A stretch of DNA of 64,000 nucleotides. Source: Microtetraspora sp. NBRC 13810 (GTDB lineage Bacteria; Actinomycetota; Actinomycetes; Streptosporangiales; Streptosporangiaceae). The stretch spans positions 1 through 64,000 of the forward strand of contig NZ_BSRQ01000015.1 of the NCBI RefSeq assembly GCF_030268685.1. Direction: 5' to 3'. Every line of letters starts with the position of its first letter. The first letter of the stretch is position 1. The notes beneath the pieces are model-generated. The model saw nothing but the letters and a program-made list of their open reading frames with translations. It ran no database searches and was not told the origin of the DNA. A program made the position numbers and the translations under genes. Shown here one piece after another: positions 3,671 to 30,110 of this stretch.

Positions 3671-3801
3671 GGCCTTGGTCTGCTCGGCTTGTCCCGGGGC
3701 GATGGTGGGCGGGATGATCAGGCATCCACCCCAGCCACCTACGGACCCAGACAGCCGACGCGGCGATCATCCCGGAGCCGGAGAGCCCCCGCCGGAGGCA
3801 T
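3671..3801 (+). repeat. Repeat A, partial copy (right part only)
   Basis: The segment matches the right part of the repeats at 8290-8520 and 19125-19352, from GGCCTTGGTCTGCTCGGC through CGGGATGATCAGGC to GATCATCCCGGAG and GCCCCCGCCGGAGGCAT. The left arm of the outer stem and the 5' arm of the inner hairpin are missing. It ends 31 bases from the stop codon of the cargo gene at 3833-4453, which reads towards it. In the two full copies the cargo gene instead reads away from repeat A. Confidence 0.75.
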
Positions 3802-4952: not shown

Positions 4953-4997
4953 GTGGAGCGGGTGACGGGAATCGAACCCGCGCTGTCAGCTTGGGAA
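4953..4997 (-). other. att core 1 (3' half of tRNA-Gly), left boundary of AICE-1
   Basis: The 45 bases are identical to 17971-18015 and 30066-30110. They comprise the 3' half of the tRNA-Gly gene from the anticodon loop to the acceptor end plus four bases beyond it. After 4997 the tRNA sequence is not continued, so this is an attachment-site duplicate and not a tRNA gene. Confidence 0.9.
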
Positions 4998-6995: not shown

Positions 6996-7010
6996 TGTCA
7001 GCTTGGGAAG
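6996..7010 (-). other. Att core remnant 5
   Basis: The 15 bases TGTCAGCTTGGGAAG match the anticodon-proximal end of the att core and one more base of the tRNA. The downstream 100 bases again contain ATTCCCCGTGAGTTCCCC-like repeats as after core 4. The rest of the core is gone. It is short, and the support comes from its context. Confidence 0.45.
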
Positions 7011-7234: not shown

Positions 7235-7744
7235 GTGAGGGTAGTAGCCGCGCTGATTGAGGCACATGAAGTGGGCTTCGATTACAGAGACGGTGCCGGC
7301 GTGGACTTTGAGCCATACCCCCAGTTCCTGACGGCAGCCGATACCGCGCAGTGGTGGCGGGCCTGGATGGGAAACCCCTCTGTCGATGGAGCCGAGTTTC
7401 GGGTGTTCGGGCAGGACGGTACTGGCGGTATGGCGGCGTTCTGGCTCGTCCGCAGCGGTGAGCCGCTCACGCAGCAGCCGGTGGTCTTCCTCGACTCTGA
7501 GGGCAGGACTGGGCTCGTAGCCCGCAACCTGGACGGCTACCTATGGCTGATTGCGGCCGGATTCGGCCCGTTCGAAGCAATGATGTACCCGACACATGAG
7601 CATGAGCCGCGCGCTGACGCGAGACTGACGCAGATCGCCGAACGCTGGGCACCGTCAGCCCGCCAGCCCGCGGCCGAGGTGATAGGCACCGCGCGGCAGG
7701 AGTTCCCGTACTTCGACGAGACGGTGGAGTCACTGTGTCGCTGA
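7235..7744 (+). CDS. Hypothetical cargo protein
   Basis: The 169-residue protein begins at a GTG (7235). It has an aromatic-rich N-terminal part (GFDYRDGAGVDFEPYPQFLTAADTAQWW), then FRVFGQDGTGGMAAFWLV and FLDSEGRTGLVARNLDGYLWLIAAG, the pattern of the SMI1/KNR4-like (SUKH) immunity group, though I would not insist on that assignment. The C-terminus is charged. It lies directly left of the arm repeats at 7766-7787, the presumed left end of the intact AICE-1 unit. Confidence 0.6.
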   Translation: MRVVAALIEAHEVGFDYRDGAGVDFEPYPQFLTAADTAQWWRAWMGNPSVDGAEFRVFGQDGTGGMAAFWLVRSGEPLTQQPVVFLDSEGRTGLVARNLDGYLWLIAAGFGPFEAMMYPTHEHEPRADARLTQIAERWAPSARQPAAEVIGTARQEFPYFDETVESLCR

Positions 7745-8289: not shown

Positions 8290-8520
8290 GCCCGTCTGAT
8301 CATCCCGTCCGCCGTCGACCCGCCCGAAGGGGAAGCGGGACAGGGCCAGGGGTCAAGGTGGAGCGCCCCGCGGACGAACGACCTTGACCCCTGGCCCTGG
8401 TCTGCTCGGCTTGTCCCGGGTCGATGGCGGGAGGGATGATCAGGCCCTTACCTCAACTGTTGAGGACCGGATGGCTTTCGCGGGTCCTCGGCGATCATCC
8501 CGGAGCCGGAGTGCCCCCGC
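8290..8520 (+). repeat. Repeat A, full copy in AICE-1
   Basis: The element has an outer inverted repeat (8296-8321 with 8418-8443, beginning CTGATCATCCCG and ending GGGATGATCAG), a small CCCGC/GCGGG hairpin, and a perfect 19-bp inner stem (8341-8359 CAGGGCCAGGGGTCAAGGT with 8381-8399) around a 21-nt loop. The right part repeats the GATCATCCCGGAG motif. The copy at 19125-19352 keeps all of this but with a different inner stem. No frame through it looks coding. It separates two divergent cargo genes. Confidence 0.85.
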
Positions 8521-8584
8521 GCCTGAGACGAAAAGATCGAATGACCTACACTCTGCCGCACTAGGTGACGGCAAAGGAACCACG

Positions 8585-9070
8585 ATGTCCCTCGACAATC
8601 ACGTGAAGGTCATCTTTCCCTTGGAACGAGACGAGGACGATTGGCCGCCAGCGGGTGAGGAGTCCATATGGGCGGAGGTCACCGACGAGCCGGAGGTTGT
8701 ACGCCTGGCGAACACGCCGTTCTTTGTGCGTGGGGTGGCTTGGGGTGATCGGGTCCACGTACGCCGAGACGCTAACGATGGGTCCTGGCAGTACGAGGCG
8801 TTAGTTCAGGAGTCGGGTCACTCGACGGTGCGCATCGTGCTATCTGACGAGGGATACGTGTCAAAGATCCATGCCAAACTGGCGGAGTTGGGATGTGAGT
8901 GGACGGGCATCCGCGCGTTCCCCAACTTAATCGCGGTTGATGTTCCTCCGGGCCTCCCCTACGGTCCGCTTCGGGCCTGGCTCGATGAGGGGGAAAAGGC
9001 CGATCGCCTTGGGTTCGAGGAAGGATGCATTTCTGCTCACCACCGCGCAGGCTGGGATCAGACGCGCTGA
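8585..9070 (+). CDS. DUF4265 domain protein (cassette cargo)
   Basis: The 161-residue protein matches the DUF4265 family from end to end: VKVIFPLERDEDDWPP at the start, ESIWAEVTDEPEVVRLANTPFFVRGVAWGD in the middle, then SGHSTVRIVL, LAELGCEW and NLIAVDVPPGLPYGPLRAWLDEGE. The family is typical of actinomycete variable and polymorphic-toxin regions and its biochemical role is unknown. The ATG at 8585 follows AAAGGAACCACG. It is the only gene between repeat A (8290-8520) and repeat B (9130-9240). Confidence 0.8.
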   Translation: MSLDNHVKVIFPLERDEDDWPPAGEESIWAEVTDEPEVVRLANTPFFVRGVAWGDRVHVRRDANDGSWQYEALVQESGHSTVRIVLSDEGYVSKIHAKLAELGCEWTGIRAFPNLIAVDVPPGLPYGPLRAWLDEGEKADRLGFEEGCISAHHRAGWDQTR

Positions 9071-9129
9071 GCACTGACCTCTACGCCGGGGATCGATGGC
9101 GGATGCATGCATTGAAGGTCTACCGCGGA

Positions 9130-9240
9130 CCGTATTGGTGCGACCCGAGCTGCTGCCGGCCGGGACCGGCCCCCAGGCCGCATGCCCGGCCGGCGAGCGG
9201 GCGTTGGGCGCGAGGCGGCGCGGAGCGACGCCCTTGATAC
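9130..9240 (+). repeat. Repeat B, copy in AICE-1
   Basis: The copy starts in CGACCCGAGCTGCTG, contains the stem GCCGGCCGGG (9155-9164) / CCCGGCCGGC (9185-9194) around the conserved loop ACCGGCCCCCAGGCCGCATG, and ends with GCGGCGCGGAGCGACGCCC and TTGAT. The AICE-2 copy (20048-20168) is nearly identical over about 95 bases although the genes before and after are unrelated. Confidence 0.8.
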
Positions 9241-9270
9241 CCATGAGATCAATTCGGCAATGTTGCGGGC

Positions 9271-9609
9271 ATGGCTGAGTTCATCGAGGTGCACGTGACG
9301 GCCGGTGATCGGGATGAGGCCGAGCGGATGTGTTCGGCAGTGGTGGAGCGGCGGCTGGCGTCGGCTGCCCAGGTGGTCGCGCCGATCTCCTCGACCTACT
9401 GGTGGGCGGGTGAGGTCCGGCGGTCGGAGGAGTGGCTGGTGTTCATGAAGACCACCGGTGATCGCTTCGAGGAACTGGCGGCCTGTGTGCGAGAGCTGCA
9501 CTCCTATGAGGTGCCACAGATCATCGCCGTCCCGCTGGTGTACGGCACGGCCGACTACTTGGAATGGATCAGGCGGGAGACGTCCCCCGGGACCGGCGGG
9601 TGGCGATGA
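9271..9609 (+). CDS. cutA: CutA-type divalent cation tolerance protein
   Basis: The 112-residue protein has the full CutA fold signature: IEVHVTAGDRDEAERMCSAVVERRLASAAQV at the N-terminus, ISSTYWWAGEVRRSEEWLVFMKTT in the middle, and HSYEVPQIIAVPLVYGTADYLEWI, with the conserved EVPQI strand. CutA proteins form trimers; they are linked to copper tolerance in some bacteria, but the general role is unsettled. It follows repeat B and converges on the XRE gene, overlapping it by 41 bases. In AICE-2 the same slot holds a Nudix hydrolase. Confidence 0.9.
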   Translation: MAEFIEVHVTAGDRDEAERMCSAVVERRLASAAQVVAPISSTYWWAGEVRRSEEWLVFMKTTGDRFEELAACVRELHSYEVPQIIAVPLVYGTADYLEWIRRETSPGTGGWR

Positions 9610-11020
9610 TGTCGCCGAGGAGTTCCCGGGCGGCCTGGTCGGGCCTGGTGGCGAGTGCCTGTTCCACCTTGGCGAGGTGTTTCATGCCCCAGGTGGATTC
9701 GGAGCGCTGGGCGGCTTCCAGGGAACGGCGGGCGTAGGAGACGCCCTCGCTCACGTCGCCGATCTGGAGTTGGGCTTGGGCGATGTCGGCGTAGATGACG
9801 GCGACTATCTTGCGGTCGGAGTCCTGGGCGGCCGAGGACAGAGCGGCTTGCCCGGCCTCGATCACGCGGCGTTCGTCGCCGAGTCGTACGTAGGTTGAGA
9901 GCTGGAAGGCAGCGATGCGGCCGGGGTCGAGGAAGCGGGTCCAGGCGCGCTCACGGTGGGGGCGGGCTCGGCTGTATGCCTCTTCCGCCCGGTGCAGGCG
10001 GTCGATGGCCTGCCGGTCGCCGAGGCCGGCCAGTTCTTCGGCTTCGCGGCACAGCAGCCATGCGCGTGTGGCGTCGTCGCCGTCCGCGGGGAGGTACGCC
10101 TGTGCCTGTCGCAGGACGTCGACGGCGGCTCGGCCTTCGACGGCGTAGGACTTGTAGCCCAGGCCGCACGCCTGGATGACCGGGTGTCCGCTCTCCTTGG
10201 CGGTCAGGGCGGCGACGCGATCGAATGAGGCAGACTGGCCGGGCTGTTTGAGGTCCCAGGCGATCCAGGCGGCCAGGGTGGCGGCTTCTCCGGCGCTGGC
10301 GGCCAGGCGGCGGCGGTACCGGTCGGCAGGGTTGCCGTGGAGCAGGGTGCTCAGTTCGTTGATATGGCCGGTGAGCCCTTGGTAGATCGTCCTGGCGGGG
10401 AGTACCGATTCCAGCCGGTGGAAGCCGATGGTCCGGGCCTCCAGGCGTTCCACGATGTCCTCGTCGAGCGACTGCGGGCCGCTAAGGGCGCGTGACAGCC
10501 GCTCCCAGGGGTCGGTGATGCTGGCGCCGACTTCGGCGGTCATACCGGCGGCCAGGAGCAACATGGTTCTTCGGTCCATGCGGGTGTCCAGCCTTCCCAC
10601 TACCCAGGCCAGCGTCGGGAGATCGATATCTCCGGGATCGCCCGTCTGGTGGTCGTCCACAGCAACTTGTCCCACGGTAGGCAGGGCACTTGCTGGGGTT
10701 CCATCCCGACGCGGGATGCGTGTGGGCTGGGCAGGTGCCAGGCCAAGGGTCATGCGGGCGGGGTCGGGCAGGTGCAGGCCGTCGGCGATGCGCTCGATGA
10801 CCTCGAACGAGGTGACCTGCACGGTTCCTTTCATGATTTCGCTGATCTTGCCCTGGCTGAGGTTCACCGCGACGCCGATGCGGGTCTGGCTGACTCCGGC
10901 GTACTGGCGGACCAGTCGCAAAATTGTGCCGATGTCGCGATTTCGGAGGGCTGTGAGCATTTCGGGGCGTTGCCAGAGGTCAGCCGGTATGACGACCGGT
11001 TGTGCCGCATGTGCGGGCAT
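9569..11020 (-). CDS. XRE-family regulator with TPR-like C-terminal region
   Basis: The 483-residue protein begins at the ATG at 11020, preceded by GGGATAAGG. An N-terminal helix-turn-helix (IGTILRLVRQYAGVSQTRIGVAVNLSQGKISEIMKG, about residues 30-70) is followed by a long helical region with Ala/Leu-rich repeats (AATLAAWIAWDL, DDATRAWLLCREAEELAGLGD, VIYADIAQAQLQIGDVSEGVSYARRSLEAA) that reads as tetratricopeptide repeats. The protein at 20793-22010 in AICE-2 has the same design. This fits a control gene of the accessory region, possibly peptide- or ligand-responsive. It is divergent from the small genes at 11164-11627. Confidence 0.85.
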   Translation of the reverse strand: MPAHAAQPVVIPADLWQRPEMLTALRNRDIGTILRLVRQYAGVSQTRIGVAVNLSQGKISEIMKGTVQVTSFEVIERIADGLHLPDPARMTLGLAPAQPTRIPRRDGTPASALPTVGQVAVDDHQTGDPGDIDLPTLAWVVGRLDTRMDRRTMLLLAAGMTAEVGASITDPWERLSRALSGPQSLDEDIVERLEARTIGFHRLESVLPARTIYQGLTGHINELSTLLHGNPADRYRRRLAASAGEAATLAAWIAWDLKQPGQSASFDRVAALTAKESGHPVIQACGLGYKSYAVEGRAAVDVLRQAQAYLPADGDDATRAWLLCREAEELAGLGDRQAIDRLHRAEEAYSRARPHRERAWTRFLDPGRIAAFQLSTYVRLGDERRVIEAGQAALSSAAQDSDRKIVAVIYADIAQAQLQIGDVSEGVSYARRSLEAAQRSESTWGMKHLAKVEQALATRPDQAARELLGDIIATRRSRGTSPA

Positions 11021-11163
11021 CTGCCTTATCCCCTTGCGTCCTTGGACTGGCGGTAGTCCAACGCTCACGGCTTGGAGTCATCCCGTCAAGGGATACCGGC
11101 CATCCGGCGCAGGGATGTCGCCTCGGGATGGGATGCGTATCCCCTGGTGAAGAACCTTGATCC

Positions 11164-11340
11164 ATGACGACCAAGGGGGAGCCGAGAAGCGAGAGGTGCC
11201 GAGCCTGCCGGGGTAAGGGCTGGCGCTGGGTCCGCAAGAGCCGGGCCGGTGCCGGGCAGCGCCTGGACGGCGGGGCGATCGAGCTGGGGCAGGTCGGCTG
11301 CTTTGAGTGCTCTGGTGTGGGGAGACGGCGGGTGGCGTGA
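11164..11340 (+). CDS. Small zinc-ribbon protein (CxxCxGxG)
   Basis: This 58-residue product carries CRACRGKGW near the N-terminus and CFECSGVG near the C-terminus, two DnaJ-type CxxCxGxG motifs likely to bind one zinc. A longer homologous gene with CTACDGRGW and CVYCDGP lies at the same position in AICE-2 (22127-22537). Its stop overlaps the ATG of the next gene (ATGA-type junction at 11340), so the two are translationally coupled. The role in the element is unknown. Confidence 0.65.
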   Translation: MTTKGEPRSERCRACRGKGWRWVRKSRAGAGQRLDGGAIELGQVGCFECSGVGRRRVA

Positions 11341-11627
11341 TGGAGATCATCATGAGCTGTATGAGCCCGCATGTGTCGCTGGCTCGGCGGGATCACATGC
11401 GGCTGGTCTGGCAGGAGCCGTATCACGGTGTGGAGCGGGTCCGGGTGCTGTTGTGGACATGTGACTGCCGGGCAACGGTCTATGAGCTGTGCCAGGCGGG
11501 CGGGCAGACGTTCCTGCGCCGGACGCTGCGGTTCGAGAAGGAACGGCAGGTGCACGAGACGTACCGGTGGACGTTCGCGCAGGCGTACGAAATCTGGGTG
11601 GCGTTGCTCTGCGGCGCGGCCCGGTAA
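11340..11627 (+). CDS. Small conserved AICE protein
   Basis: The 95-residue protein starts at the ATG overlapping the preceding stop. It contains RVLLWTCDCRATVYELCQAGGQTFLRRTLR and ends with AYEIWVALLCGAAR. The AICE-2 product at 22534-22836 shows the same arrangement (VVAWTCHEHRETWYELCSAGGLVFVRRM, ending in VWVALLSGRVR), so the family is conserved between the elements although identity is modest. The C.C..YELC.AGG core is the recognisable part. No function is known to me. Confidence 0.65.
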   Translation: MEIIMSCMSPHVSLARRDHMRLVWQEPYHGVERVRVLLWTCDCRATVYELCQAGGQTFLRRTLRFEKERQVHETYRWTFAQAYEIWVALLCGAAR

Positions 11628-11685
11628 GTCCTGGTGACGGTGTCCTGTCGGTTGAAGGGGTTCGCATGGGCAACATGCGCTGCTA

Positions 11686-11705
11686 GCCTGCTTGGCTAGG
11701 CAGGC
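11686..11705. promoter_or_regulatory. Operator-like palindrome upstream of gntR (AICE-1)
   Basis: GCCTGCTTGGCTAGGCAGGC is a near-perfect 20-bp palindrome ending 20 bases before the gntR start. Its CTTGG half resembles the CTTGACTGGCCAAG-type sites before pra (12490-12563), so it probably serves autoregulation. Confidence 0.5.
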
Positions 11706-11725
11706 ATGTTGATTGTGGGGCTCTG

Positions 11726-12457
11726 ATGACGTTTGAATATACGCCGCCGAAGTATGCGCAACTGATCGCGGAGCTGGAACGGCGCATCGATTCGGGCGAG
11801 TACCCGCCGGGTTCCCCGCTGCCCAGCGAACACCAGCTCATGGCGGAGTTCGGGATGGCCCGCCCGACCGTGGTCAAGGCGCTGGGCGTACTACGCGATC
11901 AAGGCTGGATCGTCACGCATCAGGGCAAGGGCCGCTTTGTGCGCGGGCGTCCCGCGATGCCGACCGCCCAGCAGGTCAGGACCGGGCGTGAGCTGCTGGA
12001 TCGGAACGAGGCCCAGGTATCCGGGCGGCTGCTCAGTGCCGGTGAGGTGGAGGCGCCCAACAGGATCGCGACCTATCTCGGCATCAAGCCCGCCTCGCCG
12101 GTCGTGCTGCGCCGGTCGTTGGTGGAGCATGACGGGGAGCCGATCGAGATCTCTTCGGCGTGGCTGCCGGTCGCGGTGGCTGACGGTACGGCGCTGGCCG
12201 AGTCCGCCGATCTCAAGCACGGGGTCCGCCGGTATGTGGAGAGCGCGGCCGGCGCTTCCCTGGATCACATCGTCGAGCACGTCACCGCGCGGAACCCGAC
12301 CAAGGAGGAGTGTGGCCTTCTCGGGGTGAAGAGTTCAGCCGCGCTGCTGACCGTGTACGCGGTCGCCTGTGACGCGACGGGCAGGCCGTGGGTGGTCGTG
12401 GAGACCGTTCTTCCCGGCGATCGTCACGAGCTGGAAGACGCGTATCCGATCTTGTAG
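11726..12457 (+). CDS. GntR/UTRA-family repressor (KorSA-like)
   Basis: The 243-residue protein has an N-terminal winged helix typical of GntR regulators (YAQLIAELERRIDSGEYPPGSPLPSEHQLMAEFGMARPTVVKALGVLRDQGWI, residues 9-65) and a C-terminal UTRA ligand-binding domain (VVLRRSLVEHDGEPIEISSAWLP, and DHIVEHVTARNPTKEECGLLG). In AICEs such as pSAM2 the equivalent protein (KorSA) represses pra and keeps the element silent. Here it lies directly upstream of pra, and palindromes are present before both genes. The AICE-2 homolog at 22929-23645 has a different recognition helix (VGRTTVVRALQTL against MARPTVVKALGVL). Confidence 0.88.
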   Translation: MTFEYTPPKYAQLIAELERRIDSGEYPPGSPLPSEHQLMAEFGMARPTVVKALGVLRDQGWIVTHQGKGRFVRGRPAMPTAQQVRTGRELLDRNEAQVSGRLLSAGEVEAPNRIATYLGIKPASPVVLRRSLVEHDGEPIEISSAWLPVAVADGTALAESADLKHGVRRYVESAAGASLDHIVEHVTARNPTKEECGLLGVKSSAALLTVYAVACDATGRPWVVVETVLPGDRHELEDAYPIL

Positions 12458-12489
12458 CTCCAACTTTCTCGCGAAGCCCGCTTGGTGCA

Positions 12490-12563
12490 CTTGACTGGCC
12501 AAGTGGGCTTCGTGCTTAATGGAGTCACACAGCTTGGTCAGTCAAGCAGTCTGACCAGTCAAG
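12490..12563. promoter_or_regulatory. Operator cluster and promoter of the pra operon (AICE-1)
   Basis: Three related 14-bp sites are visible: CTTGACTGGCCAAG (12490-12503), CTTGGTCAGTCAAG (12533-12546) and TCTGACCAGTCAAG (12550-12563). The first overlaps a possible -35 TTGACT, with CTTAAT 18 bases on as -10. The arrangement suggests repression by the adjacent GntR protein. Confidence 0.65.
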
Positions 12564-12578
12564 AGAGGAGATCGCATT

Positions 12579-13001
12579 ATGGCTATCCAGGGACCCATTC
12601 CGGTGACGTTCGGGCAGGTCTTCCCGCACGGCTGCTTCGCCGTGGGAGACGTCGAGCCCGTCAAGGACTTCGAAGCCTCCACCAACGGCCGGTTCGTCCA
12701 GGCCAGGGACAAGCAGACGGGCGAACTCGTCTGGCAGATCCCGGTCATGGACGCCGACCCGACCCTCAAGGCGGCACAGAAAACGGTGTCGGTGAAGCTC
12801 CTCGGCGCGGTACAGCCGGTTCCCCCGGCGCCGGTGGCGGGCGTGCCGTTCGTCCCGGTGGAGTTCGACGGCCTGACCATCACGCCCTACGTCAACGGCG
12901 CGGGACGGCTGGCCTACTCGATCAAGGCGCGGCAGATCCTCGCTCCGCGCACCAACACCAGCACGACCAAGACCACGAGCAAGGAGGCAGCAGCGGCATG
13001 A
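12579..13001 (+). CDS. pra: Plasmid replication, integration and excision activator (Pra)
   Basis: The 140-residue protein matches the AICE activator family by its opening MAIQGPIPVTFGQVFPHGC, the VEPVKDFEAST segment, VMDADPTLKAAQKTVSVKLL and FDGLTITPYV. In pSAM2 Pra turns on replication, excision and integration genes. The C-terminal tail is Thr/Lys/Ala-rich. A ribosome-binding site AGAGAGGAG precedes the ATG. The next gene overlaps its stop by four bases. A close paralog lies in AICE-2 at 24394-24828. Confidence 0.85.
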   Translation: MAIQGPIPVTFGQVFPHGCFAVGDVEPVKDFEASTNGRFVQARDKQTGELVWQIPVMDADPTLKAAQKTVSVKLLGAVQPVPPAPVAGVPFVPVEFDGLTITPYVNGAGRLAYSIKARQILAPRTNTSTTKTTSKEAAAA

Positions 13002-13291
13002 CCGGCTTCACCTACACCAGCGTCTCACTGGCACCCGGTTCTGAGCCTCGTGTGGCGATCTCCGTCTTCCTCGATGAGAGCACAGAGGTCAGCTACTTCC
13101 CAACTACGCCCGATGGGCGGGCATTCATCGCGATCAAGCACGGCAAGGTGTCCGTGCACCTCGGAATCTCCTCGGACGCCGAGATCATCGATGAAGACCT
13201 CCGGCTCGCCCGGGAGCTGCACGACGCGACGGCGCGGTTCCTGGCCGATTGCGAGCGCCTGCACGCCGATCAGGACTCGGCTGCGGCCTGA
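12998..13291 (+). CDS. Small AICE backbone protein of unknown function
   Basis: This 97-residue protein begins with an ATG overlapping the pra stop (ATGA). It reads VSLAPGSEPRVAISVFLDESTEV, AFIAIKHGKVSVHLGISSD and, in the last third, a helix DLRLARELHDATARFLADCERLH. The product at 24825-25133 in AICE-2 shows the same pattern (DLDLARQIRDAASRYLADCQRLH), so it is a true backbone gene placed between pra and traB. It has no membrane segment and no recognisable motif. A role in transfer or its control is inferred only from position. Confidence 0.75.
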   Translation: MTGFTYTSVSLAPGSEPRVAISVFLDESTEVSYFPTTPDGRAFIAIKHGKVSVHLGISSDAEIIDEDLRLARELHDATARFLADCERLHADQDSAAA

Positions 13292-13300
13292 CAGGTAAGC

Positions 13301-13334
13301 GGGGCCGCTGGAAGCGGCAACTTCCGGCGGCCCC
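13301..13334. other. 34-nt hairpin before traB, identical in both AICEs
   Basis: GGGGCCGC pairs with GCGGCCCC and, after one unpaired base on each side, GGAAG pairs with CTTCC around a CGGCAA loop. The same 34 bases occur at 25143-25176, also between the small gene and traB, while neighbouring coding DNA has diverged. There is no T-tract. It may be an RNA regulator of traB or a DNA site such as clt. Confidence 0.75.
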
Positions 13335-13376
13335 CTGGATCTCTCCCGACACCTCATCAAGAGAGGACATCAGCAT

Positions 13377-14804
13377 ATGTGGCGACGACTGCCCGGCGAA
13401 GAAACCGCGGGACTGGTCTCCACGAGTCCCGGGACACCGGTCGTGTTCCGGCCCACCGTGGTCCCCACCCCCGCCTTCATCACGATCATCATCTTGACGT
13501 GGCGTCTGATCTGGGGCGCCCTCATCACCATCTATCTGCACCCGATTGCGGCAAGCCTCGTAGCCGCGACCGCGACCGCGACGGTAGTGCTCGGCTGGAA
13601 AGTCACGCTCTTCGGGGCGGGGGCCGTGGCGTCTGCCCTTGCGCTGTGGGCGAATCTGGCCTTCCCTTCATTCCTCACCTGGGTCGGCTGGCCGCTGCTG
13701 GCGTTCTGGCGGTGGCTGTGGATCTACCGGCGTCACTGGCTCGCCGTCGTCGCCGTTTCCGGCCTGGGCCGCTCCCTCAAGGGGCGCGACTTCACTCCCC
13801 ACCTCGTGGGCGTCCGCTGTGACGGCCAGGTGGACCGGGTGACGGTAAAGATGCTGAAGGGCCAAAGCGACAAGGAGTGGTGCGACCGGAGTCCCAACCT
13901 CGCGCACGGCTTCGGCGCTACCTCGTGCCGGGTGTCGGTGGAAAAGGCCGGCCGACTGGTGCTGACCTTCCCGCGCCGTGACCCGCTGGCAGTGCCGTTG
14001 CCTGCGCGGCCTCTGCCCGAGTGGCCATCCGTGGGACCGGTGGAGATCGGCCAGTGTGAGGACGGCACGCCGTACAAGCTCAAGGTGCATGGCACGCACA
14101 TCCTGATCGCCGGAGCGACCGGGGCCGGTAAGGGGTCGTGGCTGTGGTCGGTGATCCGTGGGCTGTTGCCTGCGGCGCGTGCTGGGCTGGTCCAACTGTG
14201 GGCGATGGACCCCAAGCTCATGGAGCTGTCATTCGGCCGGTCGCTGTTCCACCGCTACGCCGACGCCCCCGAAGATTGCGCCTACCTGCTCGAAGAGGCC
14301 GTGAAGGTCATGCAGGAACGGGCGGCACGGTATGCCGGGGTCCGGCGCAACCACGTCCCGACGATCGCCGACCCGTTCATCTTGCTCCTGGTGGATGAGC
14401 TGGCGTTCCTCACCGCGTATCAGGCCGACAAGGGCCTCAAGCAGCGCATCACGGCGGCCCTGGCCACGTTGACGACGCAGGGCCGGGCGGTCGGTGTCGG
14501 GGTCATGGCGGCGTTGCAGGACCCGCGCAAGGACGTCGTGTCAATCCGCAACCTGTTCCCCGACAAGGTCGCGCTCAGGCTGGATGAGTCCGAACAGGTG
14601 GACATGGTCCTCGGCGACGGCGCTCGGGACCGGGGCGCGCTGGCCGACCTGATCTCACCCGATCCCGCGATCGGCGCGGGCGTCGGATACGTCTGGCTGG
14701 AGACCTCGCCCGATCCGGTGCGGGTGCGGGCGGCATACGTGTCGGACAACGACATCCGGCACATGGTCCTGCGCTACGGCCGGGGGACAGGTGAGGCCCT
14801 GTGA
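13377..14804 (+). CDS. traB: TraB-type FtsK/SpoIIIE DNA translocase (conjugation)
   Basis: The 475-residue protein has hydrophobic N-terminal segments (residues about 35-110: FITIIILTWRLIWGAL, ATATATVVLGWKVTLFGAGAVASALAL) and a C-terminal FtsK-type ATPase. Walker A is GATGAGKGSW at about residue 246 and Walker B is ILLLVDELAFL at about 340. Proteins of this size transfer AICEs as double-stranded DNA between hyphae and recognise short repeats in the clt locus. The ATG is preceded by GAGAGGACATCAGCAT. Its stop overlaps the GTG of rep. The AICE-2 copy is 480 residues long. Confidence 0.93.
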   Translation: MWRRLPGEETAGLVSTSPGTPVVFRPTVVPTPAFITIIILTWRLIWGALITIYLHPIAASLVAATATATVVLGWKVTLFGAGAVASALALWANLAFPSFLTWVGWPLLAFWRWLWIYRRHWLAVVAVSGLGRSLKGRDFTPHLVGVRCDGQVDRVTVKMLKGQSDKEWCDRSPNLAHGFGATSCRVSVEKAGRLVLTFPRRDPLAVPLPARPLPEWPSVGPVEIGQCEDGTPYKLKVHGTHILIAGATGAGKGSWLWSVIRGLLPAARAGLVQLWAMDPKLMELSFGRSLFHRYADAPEDCAYLLEEAVKVMQERAARYAGVRRNHVPTIADPFILLLVDELAFLTAYQADKGLKQRITAALATLTTQGRAVGVGVMAALQDPRKDVVSIRNLFPDKVALRLDESEQVDMVLGDGARDRGALADLISPDPAIGAGVGYVWLETSPDPVRVRAAYVSDNDIRHMVLRYGRGTGEAL

Positions 14805-16462
14805 CCCATGCCAATGACCGGAGCATCCCCCGTGCCCTCCGCCAGTCCATGCCCGTCGCGCTCGACGTGGCGGAAGAGATCGCCAAGGTCAACGGGGTGT
14901 GTCTCCAGCCGTTGGAGTTCAAGCGCATCGACACCCTGACCGGACAGATCACGCTCATCGATGTCCCGTGCGGGGCCACGCTGGAAAGCAAGTGCGCCCC
15001 GTGTGCGAAGCGGAACCGGCAGCTTCGCATGGTCCAGTGCCGGGAAGGCTGGCACCTCGACCACGAACCGGTCACCACCCCGGATGAGCCGACCGACGAA
15101 CAGTCCTGGCTGGTGGAGTTCCGCGCCGACCTCCAAGCCCAGCGCGACGCCGCCGAAACGGCCGGGCAAGACACCGCCGACCTGGACGCCGCGATCCTGG
15201 CCGTGGACGACGAGATCAACGCGGCGGGAATCCGCGGGAACGTGCTGGGCCGGGCGGTCAAGAAGCGCAATCGCTCGACCCGCCGCCGCCAGGACGCCCC
15301 CGACCTGCCCAGGCGACCGATGACCAACACAACCCTCGGCCGGACCTTCACCGGCAACGACGGCAAGGTCTACCGGCCCTCGATGTTCATCACCCTGACC
15401 CTGCCCTCCTACGGCAAGATCCGAGACGGCGCGCCCATCGACCCATCGGCGTACGACTACCGGGCGGCTGCTCGCGACGCGTTGCACTTCTCCAAGCTGG
15501 TGGACCGGTTCGTGCAGAACCTGCGCCGGGTGGCCGGGTATGACGTGCAGTACTTCGCCACCGTCGAACCTCAAAAGCGGTTCGCCCCTCATCTGCACCT
15601 GGCGATGCGGGGCACCCTGCCTAGGGCCGATGTCCGGGCTGTCGTCGCGGCGACGTATCACCAGGTGTGGTGGCCACCGGCCGACCGGGTCCTCTTCGAG
15701 GGTGACCACCTGCCGGTGTGGGTGGAACGGGAAGACGGCACACAGCAGGCCGGGGACTACTGCGACCCCGCGACCGGCGAAGTCCTGCCCACCTGGGACC
15801 AGGCGCTTGACCTCCTGGACGCCGACCCGGACGCCGAACCCCTGCACGTGGTCCGCTTCGGCACCCAAGTGGACGTGCAAGGCATCCTCGCCGGGTCGTC
15901 CGACGCAGACACCCAGATACGTTACCTGTCGAAGTACCTGACCAAGTCCCTTGGCGTCGGCTCCCTCGACCCCGAACAGGCCACCTACCAGGCCCGGCGG
16001 GACCACGCGGCCCGGCTGTGTGACGCGCTGCGGTACGAACCGTGCTCACCCTCGTGCCCGAACTGGCTGCGCTACGGAGTACAGCCCAAGGGCGCCAAGC
16101 CCGGGATGGTGCCGGGCCGGTGCAGGTCCAAGGCGCACAAGCCCGATCACCTCGGCTACGCCGGGCGGCGGGTGCTGGTCAGCCGCAAGTGGTCGAACAA
16201 GACCCTGGCCGAACACCGCGCCGACCGCCGTACCTGGGTCCTGGAAGCCCTCGGCCTCGATGCCGGCCAGTCTCCGCCGGACCCGCACCGGTTCATCTGG
16301 TGTCCCGTCCCGGCCGGGGACCCGAGTGCCACACCACGAGCGAAACGGCTGCTACGCGGGGTGGCCGAACGCTTCCGGTGGCGCAGATCGATGGAAGAGC
16401 TACAGGCCAGAGCGGAGGGACCACCGATCACGGATCTTTCGGCAATGCGGGGGGCCGCATGA
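14801..16462 (+). CDS. repSA: RepSA-type rolling-circle replication initiator
   Basis: The 553-residue protein carries the HUH motif in FAPHLHLAMRG (about residue 264) and a downstream Tyr motif IRYLSKYLTKSLG, the two signatures of rolling-circle initiators. It also has an N-terminal cysteine cluster (CGATLESKCAPCAKRNRQLR) and a later CSPSCPNW pair. The C-terminal part VLVSRKWSNKTLAEH..RRTWVLEALG is typical of AICE and Streptomyces Rep proteins. The GTG start overlaps the traB stop, and its own stop overlaps the excisionase start, so traB-rep-xis-int form one coupled operon. Confidence 0.92.
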   Translation: MTHANDRSIPRALRQSMPVALDVAEEIAKVNGVCLQPLEFKRIDTLTGQITLIDVPCGATLESKCAPCAKRNRQLRMVQCREGWHLDHEPVTTPDEPTDEQSWLVEFRADLQAQRDAAETAGQDTADLDAAILAVDDEINAAGIRGNVLGRAVKKRNRSTRRRQDAPDLPRRPMTNTTLGRTFTGNDGKVYRPSMFITLTLPSYGKIRDGAPIDPSAYDYRAAARDALHFSKLVDRFVQNLRRVAGYDVQYFATVEPQKRFAPHLHLAMRGTLPRADVRAVVAATYHQVWWPPADRVLFEGDHLPVWVEREDGTQQAGDYCDPATGEVLPTWDQALDLLDADPDAEPLHVVRFGTQVDVQGILAGSSDADTQIRYLSKYLTKSLGVGSLDPEQATYQARRDHAARLCDALRYEPCSPSCPNWLRYGVQPKGAKPGMVPGRCRSKAHKPDHLGYAGRRVLVSRKWSNKTLAEHRADRRTWVLEALGLDAGQSPPDPHRFIWCPVPAGDPSATPRAKRLLRGVAERFRWRRSMEELQARAEGPPITDLSAMRGAA

Positions 16463-16713
16463 CACGGAAGACCACGACCGAGCCGACCAGTGCGCTCCCG
16501 GAGCTGGCGCGGGGACGGCTGCTCACCGTCCAAGAGGCCGCCGAACGGCTCAACACCACGGTTCGCTTCCCTCGCCGTCTCATCGAAGAGCGGCGCATCA
16601 CCTTCGTCCACGTCGGACGCAACGTCCGCATCCCCGAAGCCGCGCTAGAGGCGTTCATCGCGGCCGGGGTCGTCCAGCCGATCACCACCACACGACGCAG
16701 AAAGGTTGCCTGA
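16459..16713 (+). CDS. xis: Excisionase (MerR-like helix-turn-helix)
   Basis: The 84-residue protein has a HTH_17/excisionase domain: LLTVQEAAERLNTTVRFPRRLIEERRITFVHVGRNVRIPEAALEAFI. Such small winged-helix proteins bend DNA at the attachment sites and steer the integrase towards excision. Its ATG overlaps the rep stop and its TGA overlaps the integrase ATG (16711-16715). The usual Tyr before the R-R-I-E segment is replaced by Phe-Pro (VRFPRRLIEE). Confidence 0.85.
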   Translation: MTRKTTTEPTSALPELARGRLLTVQEAAERLNTTVRFPRRLIEERRITFVHVGRNVRIPEAALEAFIAAGVVQPITTTRRRKVA

Positions 16714-17891
16714 TGACCACGACCACGAAGGACGAGCCCCGGCGTTCCACGGCCAAGAAGGGGAGCATGAAGCGGCGCTTCGGTCGCGTTCGGCAACTCC
16801 CGTCCGGACGGTGGCAGGCTCGATACAAGGGGCCTGACGGGCTGGACAGGGCGGCTCCTGAGACCTTCTCGACCAAGCGGGACGCCGAGGTCTGGCTGAC
16901 CAAGAAGGAAGCCGAGATCATCGAGGGCGGCTGGACGAACCCGGACCTCGGCAAAGTCGCGTTCAAGGACTACGGCGAGGGCTGGGTGAGTGAGCGGCCT
17001 GGCCTGCGTCCCAAGACGGTGCAGCTCTACGAGGGTCTGCTTCGGATTCATCTCGTCCCGATCTTCGGCGGCATGGCCGTCAACGAGATCAAGGCCGCTC
17101 ACGTGCGTAAATGGCGAAAGACGCTGTTGGACAACGGGGTCGGGCCGGTGACCGTGGCCAAGGCGTACCGGCTGCTCAAGGCGATCATGAACACGGCGGT
17201 CGAGGACCAGATGATCAAGACCAATCCGTGTCAGATCAAGGGCGGTGGCAAGGAGGAGTCTCCCGAGCGGCCGACGCTCACGGTGGAACAGGTCTACGCG
17301 CTGTCAGGTGCGATCGAGCCGCACTTCCGGGCGCTGGTGCTGGTGGCGACGTTCGGCAGTCTGCGGTGGGGGGAGTTGGCCGCGCTCAGGCGGAAGAACG
17401 TCGATCTGGAGAAGGGGACGGTCCGGATCGTGGAGAGCACGACGGACCTGCGAGATGGCTCGGTGGTCCTGGGGCCGCCGAAGTCCGCGGCGGGTGTGAG
17501 GACGGTGGCCCTGCCGTCCTTCGTCGTCTCCGCGCTCCGGACGCACATGGACAGGTACACGGCGGATCACGGTGAGGCGTTCGTCTTCCTCGGTGCCAAG
17601 AGGGCCGTGTTGCGGCGGGCCGCCTTCTCGCGTCCGTGGGCGAAGGCGCTCAAGCGTGCCGGGTTGTCGGGGATTCACCTTCATGATCTGCGTCACACGG
17701 GGAACGTGTTCGCGTCCCGGTCCGGGGCGACGTTGCGGGAGTTGATGGACCGGATGGGGCACTCCACCACGCGGGCCGCGCTGATCTATATGCATACGGA
17801 GAACGGGCGAGACCGGGCCATCGCGGACGGCATGGGGAAGATCGCGGAAGAGGTCATGCGGAAAGCGGCGGAAGAGGGATCGGGCACGTAG
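16713..17891 (+). CDS. int: Tyrosine site-specific integrase (AICE-1), apparently intact
   Basis: The 392-residue recombinase has an N-terminal arm-binding domain (RFGRVRQLPSGRWQARYKGPDGLDR, residues about 20-65), a SAM-like core-binding domain, and a catalytic domain with TFGSLRWGELAALR (first Arg, about 217), HDLRHTG (about 324) and MGHSTTRAALIYMH (Tyr about 358). All catalytic residues are visible. It lacks the extra arm-domain-like insertion found in the AICE-2 and remnant integrases (here simply YALSGAIEPHFRALVL). It should integrate the element into tRNA-Gly and, being intact, may also act on the att sites of the neighbouring elements. Confidence 0.93.
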   Translation: MTTTTKDEPRRSTAKKGSMKRRFGRVRQLPSGRWQARYKGPDGLDRAAPETFSTKRDAEVWLTKKEAEIIEGGWTNPDLGKVAFKDYGEGWVSERPGLRPKTVQLYEGLLRIHLVPIFGGMAVNEIKAAHVRKWRKTLLDNGVGPVTVAKAYRLLKAIMNTAVEDQMIKTNPCQIKGGGKEESPERPTLTVEQVYALSGAIEPHFRALVLVATFGSLRWGELAALRRKNVDLEKGTVRIVESTTDLRDGSVVLGPPKSAAGVRTVALPSFVVSALRTHMDRYTADHGEAFVFLGAKRAVLRRAAFSRPWAKALKRAGLSGIHLHDLRHTGNVFASRSGATLRELMDRMGHSTTRAALIYMHTENGRDRAIADGMGKIAEEVMRKAAEEGSGT

Positions 17892-17900
17892 CGGGCACGG
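17881..17900 (+). repeat. Diverged arm-type repeats behind int-1
   Basis: CGGGCACGTAG followed by CGGGCACGG overlaps the last codons of int and is followed by AAGATCGA, as TAATGGCACGC-repeats are at 29974-29995. Only GGCACG is kept from the consensus, so the int-side arm of AICE-1 differs from the other arms. Confidence 0.45.
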
Positions 17901-17927
17901 AAGATCGAGAAGGCCCAAGAAATCATC

Positions 17928-17965
17928 AAGGCCCGGGTCCGGAAACCAATCCTGACCTGGGCCTT
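17928..17965. terminator. Hairpin flanking att core 2 (terminator-like)
   Basis: The arms AAGGCCCGGGTC and GACCTGGGCCTT again enclose a short interior. The position relative to the att core matches 4910-4947 and 30023-30060. Confidence 0.6.
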
Positions 17966-17970
17966 CGAAT

Positions 17971-18015
17971 GTGGAGCGGGTGACGGGAATCGAACCCGCG
18001 CTGTCAGCTTGGGAA
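17971..18015 (-). other. att core 2, junction between AICE-1 and AICE-2
   Basis: The 45 bases are identical to att cores 1 and 3. The tRNA sequence stops after GGGAA, and AICE-2 sequence (TTGTAGGGAACATG) follows. It is therefore a hybrid attachment site formed when the second element integrated. Confidence 0.92.
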
Positions 18016-18100
18016 TTGTAGGGAACATGCCTTGTGGTGGCGCTGACCTGCGGCTGGGGTCGGTCATGAGTGACCGTGAGTGCCCTGTTCTTACCGGGGT

Positions 18101-18122
18101 TAATGGCACGCTAATGGCACGA
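18101..18122 (+). repeat. Arm-type repeats, right of att core 2
   Basis: Tandem TAATGGCACGC and TAATGGCACGA begin 85 bases after core 2. They are identical to the repeats at 5083-5104 and 7766-7787, including the following CGATCA. Confidence 0.6.
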
Positions 18123-18125
18123 CGA

Positions 18126-18611
18126 TCAGGGGAGACACGGCCAGAGTTCCAACCATTGATCAAGCTGCGTTCTCAGCGGTTCGCCGGTCACACGGTCGGC
18201 GATCGTCCTCATCGATCCGAGCAAGTTCTTGCAGGTACGCAGAGCCAGGATTTCGACTCTGGCTCGGGAGGCCCAATCGGTGCTCCACGCTTGGGCCTCC
18301 AGCAAGGACAGCGGCAGTGCGGCCAGAACATCCGCGCCGAGCACATCGGGATCCCACAGGGGATCTGCGTCCGATGGAAGCTCCCTGATCAGCAAGGCAC
18401 GGAGGTTGAACCGTACGGCATCCGCATCCCGCTTGGGATATCCGGCCTTCTCCGCGCCGTCCAGTGCGAAGAAGACCAGGCGGGCGAACACCCGTCGCCC
18501 TTCACCTTGCTCGGGGAGTTGGGCATGGAGTTGGTTGAGTTGATAGGCGGCTATCCACTGGTCGCGTACGTCGCTGGCCGCGGCCAAGCCGTCTCCGTCT
18601 GCCATCTTCAT
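18126..18611 (-). CDS. Hypothetical cargo protein, helical
   Basis: The 161-residue protein is predicted mainly helical (WIAAYQLNQLHAQLPEQGEGRRVFARLVFFALDGAEKAGY, RARVEILALRTCKNLLGSMRTI) and has no membrane segment or known motif. It starts directly after the stop of the upstream gene (18612), so the two minus-strand genes form an operon. Its stop codon is 3 bases from the arm repeats, at the extreme left end of AICE-2. The position and the lack of homology with AICE-1 genes mark it as variable cargo. I do not recognise the family. Confidence 0.6.
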   Translation of the reverse strand: MKMADGDGLAAASDVRDQWIAAYQLNQLHAQLPEQGEGRRVFARLVFFALDGAEKAGYPKRDADAVRFNLRALLIRELPSDADPLWDPDVLGADVLAALPLSLLEAQAWSTDWASRARVEILALRTCKNLLGSMRTIADRVTGEPLRTQLDQWLELWPCLP

Positions 18612-19091
18612 TCAGCTTCGACCTACCGAGTCGACACGAGCGCGTTCGTGGCTCCGCTCATTCAGATGACCTCTCAGACACTCCCGATGGGCGGCGATGG
18701 CATGACTGCCGGGGCCGTCGGCGCTCCTGACATCCATGACCACCCCATCGCCACCTGGGCTCAAGATTGTGGGAGTGCCGCAGAAGTCGCACGGCCACTG
18801 AAAGCTGTCTAGGTCCCGGGCGCGGATGGTCAACCGCACCCATGCCGGCGGATGCCAGCGGCGGATCTCCTGAACTACCGCGTCAATCTCCGACCCGACA
18901 GCGGGATACTCCCCTAACCAAGCGCGGCTTTCGCCGGAAGGACTGTCGATCGATGCGCCGTCGATTGACGCGCCGATGTCCTCATGGCCGATGATCGTCG
19001 CGATGACTCCCCACGGGTGCTGATCAGTCACCCGGACTCGGACGCGCTGACCAGGGACGAGGTCAGCTCCAGCGGCGTCGAATCGTTGCAC
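18612..19091 (-). CDS. Hypothetical cargo protein, beta-barrel-like
   Basis: From a GTG at 19091 the protein has 159 residues. The first part, RFDAAGADLVPGQRVRVRVTDQHPWGVIATIIGHEDIGASIDGASIDSP, looks like an S1/OB-type barrel as found in some small actinomycete cargo or immunity proteins. The later part has a C..C pair (WPCDFCGTPT) and HRECLRGH, possibly a metal site. The start is uncertain, because the frame is open upstream into repeat A without a clear ribosome-binding site. It is divergent from the HNH gene, with repeat A between them. Confidence 0.6.
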   Translation of the reverse strand: MQRFDAAGADLVPGQRVRVRVTDQHPWGVIATIIGHEDIGASIDGASIDSPSGESRAWLGEYPAVGSEIDAVVQEIRRWHPPAWVRLTIRARDLDSFQWPCDFCGTPTILSPGGDGVVMDVRSADGPGSHAIAAHRECLRGHLNERSHERARVDSVGRS

Positions 19092-19124
19092 GAGTTCATT
19101 CTTCCGCGCGCTCGCGCAAGGTTC

Positions 19125-19352
19125 GCCCGACTGATCATCCCGTCTGCCGTCGACCCGCCCGAAGGGGAAGCGGGCCATGTCCAGTGGGTCCAGGTGGAGC
19201 GCCCCACCGGACGAACGACCTGGACCCACTGGCCTTGGTCTGCTCGGCTTGTCCCGGGTCGATGGCGGGCGGGATGATCAGGCCCTTACCTCAGCCACCT
19301 ACGGGCGTGTCGGGCGATCATCCCGGAGTCGGAGGGCCCCCGCCGGAGGCAT
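19125..19352 (+). repeat. Repeat A, full copy in AICE-2
   Basis: The copy has the outer stem 19131-19156 with 19256-19281, the CCCGC/GCGGG hairpin, and an inner stem CCAGTGGGTCCAGGT (19181-19195) with its exact complement at 19218-19232. Compared with 8290-8520 the inner stem has one substituted pair and one inserted pair, both compensated on the other arm, while the 21-22-nt loop is nearly unchanged. The right part contains GATCATCCCGGAG and ends GCCCCCGCCGGAGGCAT. Confidence 0.85.
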
Positions 19353-26662: not shown

Positions 26663-26810
26663 GATCGCTCACCTGCTGGACGACCTTGCCTGCGCGGGCT
26701 GCGGCACTTCCAACGTCCTGTGGCTGTACCCGGTCCGGGGCCTGGTGGAGTGCCGCGAGTGCGGGGAGAAGACGTCGATCCTCATCGAGCCCTCGGACGG
26801 TGAGTGGTGA
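26655..26810 (+). CDS. Very small zinc-ribbon protein
   Basis: A GTG at 26655, inside the end of traB, opens a 51-residue frame: DLACAGCGTSNVLWLYPVRGLVECRECGEKTSILIEP. The two CxxC pairs 20 residues apart form a classical zinc ribbon. It overlaps both neighbours (traB by 8 bases, rep by one base), which argues for real coupled translation. AICE-1 has no equivalent, because rep there overlaps traB directly. Confidence 0.65.
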   Translation: MVEIAHLLDDLACAGCGTSNVLWLYPVRGLVECRECGEKTSILIEPSDGEW

Positions 26811-28423
26811 TGAACCTGAACGACAGGGCGACGCCTCGGGCGGTACGGCTGGCTCGGCCCCTTGCCCGGGACGTGGTTGAAGAGATCGCCAAGCAGTACG
26901 GCGTGTGCATCCGCCCCATCCCGCTGCGGCGGCTGGACACCTGCACCGGGAAGACAGAGATCATCGATGTTCCCTGCGGGGCGACGCTGGAAGCCAAGTG
27001 CCCGCCGTGTGCCAAGCGCAACCGGCAGCTCCGCAAGGCCCAGTGCCGGGAGGGCTGGCACCTGGAGGCGGAACCCGCGATCACCCCGGACGATCCGAAC
27101 GAGGATCAGCGGTGGCTGGTGGAGTTCCGCGCCGACATCCAAGCCCAGCGCGACCAGGCCCACGAGGCCGGCCAGGACACCACCGACCTGGACGCCGTCA
27201 TCACCGGCCTGGACGAAGAGATCAATGCCGCCGGAATGCGCGGCAACGTCCTCGGCCGGACCGCTCCCAAGCGATGCCGTTCGACCCGTCGGCGGCAGGA
27301 CGCCCCGGATCTGCCCAAACGCAAGATGACCGCCACGACCCTCGGCCGGACCTTCACCAGTTCCGACGGCAAGGTCTACCGGCCCTCGCTCTTCGTCACG
27401 CTCACTCTGCCCTCCTACGGCAAGGTCCGCGACGGTGTCCCAGTCGATCCAGAGAGCTACGACTACGCTCGCGCGGCTCGTGATGCGCTGCACTTCTCCA
27501 AGCTCGTAGACCGGTTCGTGCAGAACCTGCGCCGCGTGGCCGGGTACGACGTGCAGTACTTCGCCGCTGTTGAACCACAGAAGCGGCTCGCGCCGCATCT
27601 GCACATGGCGATCCGCGGCACGCTGCCCCGTGCGGAGATCAAGCAGATCGCCGCTGCCACCTACCACCAAGTGTGGTGGCCATCGACCGATCAGGTCGTC
27701 TTCGACGGGGATCATCTGCCCGTGTGGGAGGACGGCACCGGCTACCTCGACCCGGCCACCGGCGAAGTGCTGCCCACCTGGGAACAGGCCCTCGACACCC
27801 TCGACCAGGACGACGACGCCAAGCCCCAGCATGTGATCCGTTTCGGCTCACAGATCGACGTACAGGGCGTGCTGGCCGGAACTCCGGACGCCGACCAGTG
27901 CATCCGCTACCTGTCCAAGTACCTCACCAAATCCCTCACCGACACCCTCGACTCCGACGACACCGCCCAGCGTGACCACGCCGCCCGCATGGCAGACGCA
28001 CTGCGATACGAGCCGTGTTCACCCACCTGCCCGAACTGGCTGCGCTACGGCATCCAGCCCAAAGACGCAAAGCCCGGCATGGCTCCAGGCCGATGCAGGG
28101 GCAAGGCTCACAAGCCCGAACACCTCGGCTACGCCGGTCGCCGCGTCCTGGTATCTCGCAAGTGGTCGAACAAGACCCTGACCGAGCACAAGCAGGACCG
28201 CCGCACCTGGGTCCTGGAAGCCCTCGGCGTGCCCAGCGACCCGATCGACCCGCACCGCTACGTCTGGCGGCACGTCCCGTCTGGAGACGCGAACGTCCCT
28301 CCGCTCGCCATGCGGCTGCTGCGCTCCATCCATGAGCGCCAGCGCTGGCGAGCCCATATGAACGCGCTCGAAGTCAGAGCGACAGGACAACCAGATTCTT
28401 CGGCAACTTCACCGGCTGCCTGA
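26810..28423 (+). CDS. repSA: RepSA-type rolling-circle replication initiator
   Basis: The 537-residue protein is the counterpart of 14801-16462. It shows the N-terminal cysteine cluster (CGATLEAKCPPCAKRNRQLR), LFVTLTLPSYGKVRDG, the HUH motif LAPHLHMAIRG, the Tyr motif IRYLSKYLTKSL, and CSPTCPNWLRYG. Three possible start codons lie in a row (GTG, GTG, ATG). I chose the ATG at 26810, which overlaps the stop of the zinc-ribbon gene. Replication from a double-strand origin inside or near rep is expected but not identified. Confidence 0.92.
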   Translation: MNLNDRATPRAVRLARPLARDVVEEIAKQYGVCIRPIPLRRLDTCTGKTEIIDVPCGATLEAKCPPCAKRNRQLRKAQCREGWHLEAEPAITPDDPNEDQRWLVEFRADIQAQRDQAHEAGQDTTDLDAVITGLDEEINAAGMRGNVLGRTAPKRCRSTRRRQDAPDLPKRKMTATTLGRTFTSSDGKVYRPSLFVTLTLPSYGKVRDGVPVDPESYDYARAARDALHFSKLVDRFVQNLRRVAGYDVQYFAAVEPQKRLAPHLHMAIRGTLPRAEIKQIAAATYHQVWWPSTDQVVFDGDHLPVWEDGTGYLDPATGEVLPTWEQALDTLDQDDDAKPQHVIRFGSQIDVQGVLAGTPDADQCIRYLSKYLTKSLTDTLDSDDTAQRDHAARMADALRYEPCSPTCPNWLRYGIQPKDAKPGMAPGRCRGKAHKPEHLGYAGRRVLVSRKWSNKTLTEHKQDRRTWVLEALGVPSDPIDPHRYVWRHVPSGDANVPPLAMRLLRSIHERQRWRAHMNALEVRATGQPDSSATSPAA

Positions 28424-30065: not shown

Positions 30066-30110
30066 GTGGAGCGGGTGACGGGAATCGAACCCGCGCTGTC
30101 AGCTTGGGAA
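30066..30110 (-). other. att core 3 inside the intact tRNA-Gly gene
   Basis: It is identical to cores 1 and 2, and only here does the sequence continue as a full tRNA. It marks the chromosome-proximal end of the tandem array. Confidence 0.92.

Follow-up and report, generated by a model that had tools for sequence, protein, structure and literature searches.

On small rolling-circle plasmids such as pIJ101, pSN22 and pJV1, the single-strand origin (sso, or sti) is described as a strand-specific site beyond the replication gene, and in Streptomyces rolling-circle plasmids spdA is located between rep and sso (PMC4170104). An integrative element with an orientation-specific sso is already known, namely ICEBs1 of Bacillus subtilis, which replicates by rolling circle and whose folded sso1 is described as three stem-loops similar to those of pBAA1 (PMC4595007). 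For the actinomycete integrative and conjugative elements (AICEs), the RepSA protein of pSAM2 is reported to initiate rolling-circle replication by nicking a double-strand origin (dso); section 7 of the 2011 AICE survey describes the dso and not a second-strand origin, and the main text of that survey uses none of the words 'hairpin', 'stem-loop' and 'inverted repeat' (PMC3218068). Is there any site in an AICE that could serve as its second-strand origin? Here we describe a family of hairpins found in two tandem AICEs (AICE-1 and AICE-2) within 64,000 nucleotides of Microtetraspora sp. NBRC 13810 (contig NZ_BSRQ01000015.1, positions 1 to 64,000, referred to as the window). The hairpins covary among relatives and are fixed in strand, and the family is a concrete candidate for the second-strand origin of AICEs, testable by one plasmid assay. 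In the literature searched, largely outside subscription papers, no account of the hairpin element was found. Its parts in the window are as follows.

8296..8443, plus strand: hairpin of AICE-1, a three-way junction of a family 148-151 nt long (fold, covariation, match to tip model R2)
8296-8319 pairing with 8420-8443, plus strand: outer stem P1 of AICE-1
about 8323-8332, plus strand: side hairpin P2 of AICE-1
8334-8406, plus strand: long inner stem P3 of AICE-1
8358..8364, plus strand: 5' side of the tip motif, GTGGAGC, in AICE-1 (invariant or near-invariant columns)
8376..8382, plus strand: 3' side of the tip motif, GAACGAC, in AICE-1 (invariant or near-invariant columns)
8493..8527, plus strand: third copy of GATCATCCCG with a conserved tail, AICE-1 (tail kept in 32 loci)
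19131..19281, plus strand: hairpin of AICE-2, with the architecture of that in AICE-1 (fold, alignment, match to tip model R2)
19194..19200, plus strand: 5' side of the tip motif, GTGGAGC, in AICE-2
19213..19219, plus strand: 3' side of the tip motif, GAACGAC, in AICE-2
19316..19343, plus strand: third copy of GATCATCCCG with its tail, AICE-2
3671..3792, plus strand: partial third hairpin (3' half and third motif), left of AICE-1

An earlier note on this DNA had reported a hairpin in each AICE with compensatory changes between the two, and both were found at the positions it claimed. The inner arms lie at 8334-8368 and 8372-8406 in AICE-1 and at 19169-19204 and 19209-19244 in AICE-2; the outer arms lie at 8296-8322 and 8417-8443 and at 19131-19157 and 19255-19281, respectively. 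The exact complements reported for the inner stem are there, 19 nt long in AICE-1 and 15 nt in AICE-2, and an A-to-C substitution paired with T-to-G and one extra pair are indeed balanced across both arms. Beyond the 15-nt arm, two pairs of AICE-2 are broken (columns 48/106 and 50/104). The enclosed loop is nearly unchanged, as had been said, with one base and one insertion different. The outer stem is present in both AICEs, but it is 27 nt long and 89% complementary and not a perfect 26 bp; likewise the triple GATCATCCCG is exact in all three copies of AICE-2, but the minus-strand copy of AICE-1 (8432-8441) has one mismatch. Folded as single-stranded DNA, the two 236-nt stretches gave z = -8.2 (AICE-1) and -6.3 (AICE-2), with none of 200 shuffles equally stable.

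Is the fold maintained by selection, or are these only similar repeats? A DNA search with 8290-8520 gave matches in 117 of 200 family genomes and 47 of 68 genera (E <= 0.001, own genome counted), and a search at genus level gave matches in the window's own genome only. An alignment of 33 copies (A1) was made up of the two window copies, 29 of the best-scoring loci, Micromonospora rosaria pMR2 and one Nonomuraea record; it consists mostly of top-scoring matches and so leans to close relatives, and it omits L003-L008 of the own genome, which copy these hairpins in part or match them on the reverse strand. In the consensus fold, a three-way junction joins an outer stem, a small side hairpin and a long inner stem, which has a conserved internal loop and ends in a short tip; this loop, GTGGAGC/GWACGAC, lies near the tip and is near-invariant while the stem sequence varies. 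In A1, 97.4% of cells are paired versus 91.2% when shuffled. Double changes occur at 24 of 59 pairs (9.1 when shuffled) and in 103 cells (26.4 when shuffled, at most 21 in slid versions); among the 33 relatives, 7 of the double-change pairs are in the outer helix and 16 in the inner one. On a simple-parsimony tree, itself made from the hairpin columns, there are about 45 double-change events on 26 pairs, compared with 1-3 for slid partners and a mean of 2.2 (maximum 9) for 200 random re-pairings of the same columns. For example, the pair of columns 72/83 in the terminal region occurs as G-C, C-G and A-T. The hairpin fold is under strong compensatory selection. The earlier note had argued that a folded RNA or DNA is selected for, beyond repeat similarity, and had made this depend on covariation in a larger alignment; such covariation is found, and both long stems take part in it.

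The GATCATCCCG motif is coupled to the fold as well. Position 8 of its three copies, compared in 33 loci, is T/T/T in 21, C/C/C in 9 and mixed in 3, and the third copy tracks both arms at this position, which shows its coupling to P1. The C/C/C forms may belong to a single lineage, and the third copy may serve either as a protein site or as another partner for the 3' arm. With at most one mismatch, the 10-mer occurs 29 times in the window versus 8.55 expected.

The surprising part of the hairpin family is the tip motif, which is shared across kinds of element. On a 9.9-kb plasmid of Streptomyces longwoodensis the motif is carried on a different stem, with the rep side on one flank and a GntR gene on the other, and the whole hairpin architecture is matched by the full-length model R1 at 88 bits. 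The initiator of this plasmid is not RepSA; it has a Rep_1 match (E 3.7e-7, below the Pfam cut-off) and 36-37% identity to the Rep of pIJ101 and pSN22. Tips related to this one are present on pRHL2, pSHJG2 and a 35-kb S. longwoodensis plasmid typed MOBF, and also on plasmids of Nocardiopsis, Pseudonocardia and other Streptomyces. The full-length model scored 104 bits on the Nocardiopsis plasmid, 70 on pSHJG2 and 64 on the MOBF plasmid and had no match on the Pseudonocardia plasmid, in a search that covered the plasmids other than L042, L043, L047 and L048. An alignment of 22 tips (A2), comprising 13 chromosomal ones, pMR2 and 8 other plasmids and excluding the damaged tip of L047, has double changes in 18 of its 22 pairs and a covariation score of 0.471 versus 0.103 when shuffled. 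Across the phylum, the tip model R2 matched 19 of 396 genomes under stricter filters, and the exact tip pattern was found in at least 119 stretches of genome contigs. Viral contigs gave no exact match of the 22-base pattern, a form of search that diverged copies would escape. Judging from genus names, we take the 80 titles among the matches listed to be Actinomycetota, save one Saccharibacteria metagenome-assembled genome. That match (L141, 3766, minus orientation) has a poor stem and may be due to chance. The uninterrupted stem past the motif is shorter than 8 bp in 21 of 120 matches among those listed, the median being 25.

The following counts refer to the matches listed (n = 119), in which the hairpins are of two types, type I with a short tip (83) and type II with an extended tip (36). 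Type I is accompanied by Tra in 12 cases and by RepSA in 5, always downstream and on the same strand, and 56 of the 83 are without a match to the gene queries used; the same is true for 24 of the 36 hairpins of type II. Two other type II hairpins (L150 and L182) are preceded by RepSA, on the hairpin strand. IS110 transposases were found at 8 loci, 7 of type II and 1 of type I, always downstream of the hairpin, on the opposite strand and 271-543 bp off, and one type II hairpin (L232) has an ISL3 match 4.3 kb off on the same strand. There is also a mycobacterium-like genome, with a PPE gene, that has 14 hairpin matches, 13 of them of equal score; six copies fetched from it share a 1.6-kb element of the ISL3 family, which contains the hairpin close to its end. 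Note that IS110 elements have a structured noncoding stretch of their own, the bridge RNA. The present hairpin is like it in being structured, noncoding and associated with IS110, but can be set apart by description, as it stands past the 3' end of the gene and on the opposite strand, and its motif also occurs in elements other than insertion sequences (ISs).

Further regions were inspected around individual copies. Eight Streptomyces-like regions have RepSA on the hairpin strand in six (L115-L120), and RepSA was not found in L106 and L107. The AICE region L115 has two full hairpins, at 9573-9722 and 11796-11945, about 2.2 kb apart. In 12 regions of distant genomes (L101-L105 and L108-L114), where selected open reading frames (ORFs) were scanned, an integrase or transposase was identified in L102, L104 and L113, and an IS110 match lies about 3.5 kb off in L103. 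The region L105 (G249 contig 1) has three tip hairpins in 15 kb, within repeats of about 150 nt. In L091, a hairpin, an integrase-like ORF and tRNA-Met come one after another at positions 5001-7484, and the 20-kb region gave no match to RepSA or Tra; this arrangement is a candidate for a remnant or a minimal element.

On which strand does the hairpin fold? The type I stems among the matches listed (74 distinct) contain 75 G.T and 22 A.C pairs; in A1, common wobble pairs are at columns 13/140, 15/138, 19/134, 42/112 and 44/110. This excess of G.T over A.C points to the plus strand, which is the rep strand, as the folding strand. All 24 RepSA rows (23 distinct) and all 31 Tra rows have the gene on the hairpin strand, as does the single Rep_1-like row; the rows come from 127 hairpin loci of at least 4 kb and were counted only where the hairpin was matched by a regular expression and the gene by tblastn. 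L150 and L278, being of equal length, are probably duplicate contigs, as are L117 and L184 among the Tra rows. Both window copies agree with the same-strand rule. Thus two properties of an sso are found in the hairpin, namely a stable imperfect single-strand structure and an orientation fixed relative to the replication gene.

Our favoured reading, to which we give a probability of roughly 0.45 from the sequence evidence, is that the hairpin is a host-recognised single-strand origin, that is, an sso-like initiation site. It gives a scenario that the AICE would be excised at tRNA-Gly, RepSA would nick the circle, and the plus strand would be displaced through rolling-circle replication. Once displaced, the plus strand would fold at this element into the three-way junction, whose internal-loop motif close to the tip would be read by a host factor (primase, primosome or RNA polymerase), and the complementary strand would then be synthesised from the hairpin. 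An sso fits better than a dso, a transfer site or a gene leader because the fold is selected, the strand is biased, the orientation towards rep is fixed in the cases seen, the initiator of these elements is described as a rolling-circle one and the tip recurs on a plasmid whose initiator is different. Since one tip motif sits on different stems with initiators of different Pfam families, the comparison suggests that its reader may be a host protein and not the element's own Rep or Tra, and the shared motif is a possible bait for finding this protein. The place of the hairpin in the 9.9-kb S. longwoodensis plasmid may be equivalent to the sso place beyond rep. The hairpin is not the known sti sequence: this candidate was rejected, as neither the model nor the motif has a match in pIJ101, pSN22 or pJV1, and the sso/sti of these plasmids differ from it in the same respect. 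It resembles sso1 of ICEBs1 as a folded, orientation-specific site of an integrative element replicating by rolling circle, but the bacteria are different and so are the stem-loops of sso1, compared by description only (PMC4595007).

Several observations weigh against an sso. The chief difficulty is the ISs, as type II hairpins occur within ISL3 and IS110 elements or next to them, oriented against the transposase gene, and a single-stranded stage of these ISs would have to be assumed; their hairpins may engage the same host factor at another step, or the motif may be active there as RNA. Type II stems among the matches listed (34) are without the G.T bias (9 versus 9). No mobile gene was found in 8 of the 12 distant regions among the few ORFs scanned, so that mobile DNA may not carry all copies. 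The link to RepSA is also incomplete. When 20 regions of 20 kb centred on the hairpin were searched at E 1e-10, 9 had RepSA and 11 had no match, one of the latter (L096) having a RepSA fragment at the region edge. Conversely, the tip motif is in just 2 of 40 RepSA regions, and the hairpin or its base is recognisable in just 7 of 40, a lower bound since four of these regions were cut to less than 10 kb. On the plasmid side, the motif is not in pIJ101, pSN22, pJV1, pSNA1 or pSVH1, and among 12 plasmids with pIJ101-type Rep it is in the S. longwoodensis plasmid only. AICE transfer is described as double-stranded (PMC3218068), so the argument for an sso rests on replication alone. Finally, covariation is unable to separate RNA from single-stranded DNA.

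Five of the RepSA regions (L270, L280, L286, L261 and L279) have the same base and side hairpin with a different, larger tip. These copies align and fold together with double changes in 19 of 74 pairs, all on the rep strand, and the tips therefore look exchangeable on one common base. That every RepSA element carries the hairpin is rejected, given the two regions with the motif and the five with another tip. Among 19 regions with Prim-Pol, which may not all be AICEs, no convincing copy was found, and L298 gave one R2 match (E 0.042) without the motif; the numbers, 0 of 19 and 7 of 40, are too small for telling the groups apart. A coarse fold-energy scan of the RepSA regions, aimed at other large hairpins, gave a few low values (lowest L269 and L256), and no inference was drawn from it. 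A wider form of the favoured reading, possible but in our view doubtful, is that GTGGAGC/GWACGAC on freely varying stems would be a phylum-wide password for one actinobacterial host protein, acting on single-stranded DNA or RNA for second-strand synthesis, with AICEs, rolling-circle and relaxase plasmids and IS110/ISL3 as its users and the tips as swappable modules on a common base.

Could the hairpin act as RNA instead? A plus-strand transcript or leader might bind a host protein and control the genes of the element or block read-through into it. We consider this unlikely, though the fold is very stable, its G.T pairs, which would be G.U in RNA, are common, and in the IS cases the locus layouts can be interpreted as the hairpin strand reading inward from the element end. 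No Rfam family reached its gathering score on the hairpin, the best being RF01093 with 28.4 bits versus 35. Conservation at 31-60 nt upstream (0.38-0.39, not a promoter scan) is near the far-downstream background of 0.34-0.38, and 9 of 31 loci share no similarity in the DNA downstream, the remaining 22 being one similarity cluster.

A transfer site is less probable still. Sites of the clt/TRS type (cis-acting locus of transfer, TraB recognition sequence) in Streptomyces conjugative plasmids resemble the present one as cis-acting sites with short repeats on conjugative elements. They consist of 8-bp repeats bound by TraB (PMC4170104), while the present hairpin is defined by its fold and spans transfer systems. 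That the FtsK-like Tra would bind the triple GATCATCCCG as its repeats agrees with the three coupled copies of the 10-mer and with Tra being on the same strand in every row. However, the tip motif is common to plasmids with different transfer genes, in pMR2 the 10-mer is altered and the tip motif persists, and a clt has no need for a single-strand fold; this explanation is improbable.

Another explanation is that the hairpin is a small mobile or target element, a palindrome like the repetitive extragenic palindromes (REPs) or miniature inverted-repeat transposable elements (MITEs), spread by an enzyme acting in trans. Its presence in many kinds of mobile DNA and in regions without a recognised mobile gene, with up to 14 copies per genome, is what such an element would give. 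In the 14-copy genome, however, 13 of the matches are of equal score, and the six copies fetched are one ISL3 element with the hairpin inside; where rep and tra are seen, the strand is fixed relative to them, and at the 8 IS110 loci both strand and position are fixed relative to the transposase, which makes this explanation quite improbable. That the hairpin is the dso nicked by RepSA is very improbable: it is on the rep strand of elements with a rolling-circle initiator, but its tip motif accompanies high- and low-scoring RepSA as well as the Rep_1-like initiator, it occurs in a minority of the RepSA regions only, and the window hairpins are about 6.4 and 7.5 kb upstream of rep.

The limits of the two AICEs in the window are three perfect 27-bp repeats (4955, 17973 and 30068), and the features of the elements are listed below.

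4955..4981, plus strand: 27-bp repeat, taken as the att site at the left end of AICE-1
13377..14804, plus strand: FtsK/SpoIIIE-type transfer gene of AICE-1 (Pfam PF01580)
14801..16462, plus strand, as the hairpin: RepSA rolling-circle initiator of AICE-1 (Pfam PF20199, E 1.3e-99)
16551..17891, plus strand: tyrosine integrase of AICE-1 (translated stretch, start approximate; Pfam PF00589)
17973..17999, plus strand: 27-bp repeat, taken as the att site between AICE-1 and AICE-2
26804..28423, plus strand, as the hairpin: RepSA initiator of AICE-2 (match 26870-28330, 355.5 bits)
30068..30094, plus strand: 27-bp repeat, 3' end of tRNA-Gly(ccc) at 30067-30140

The integrase of AICE-2 is apparently frameshifted, with two overlapping ORFs at 28643-29440 and 29284-29964. 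The sequence 4958-4999 of the att region has a 95% copy at 6187-6228, inside AICE-1. A GC-rich 81-nt repeat is 79% identical between 4534-4614 and 9152-9232 of the window, and a stretch resembling it, as judged by eye, follows the hairpin in L091 at about 5540-5640. On the minus strand, 53386-53612 of the window match the Rfam small RNA Ms_IGR-5 with 52.8 bits, versus a gathering score of 45.

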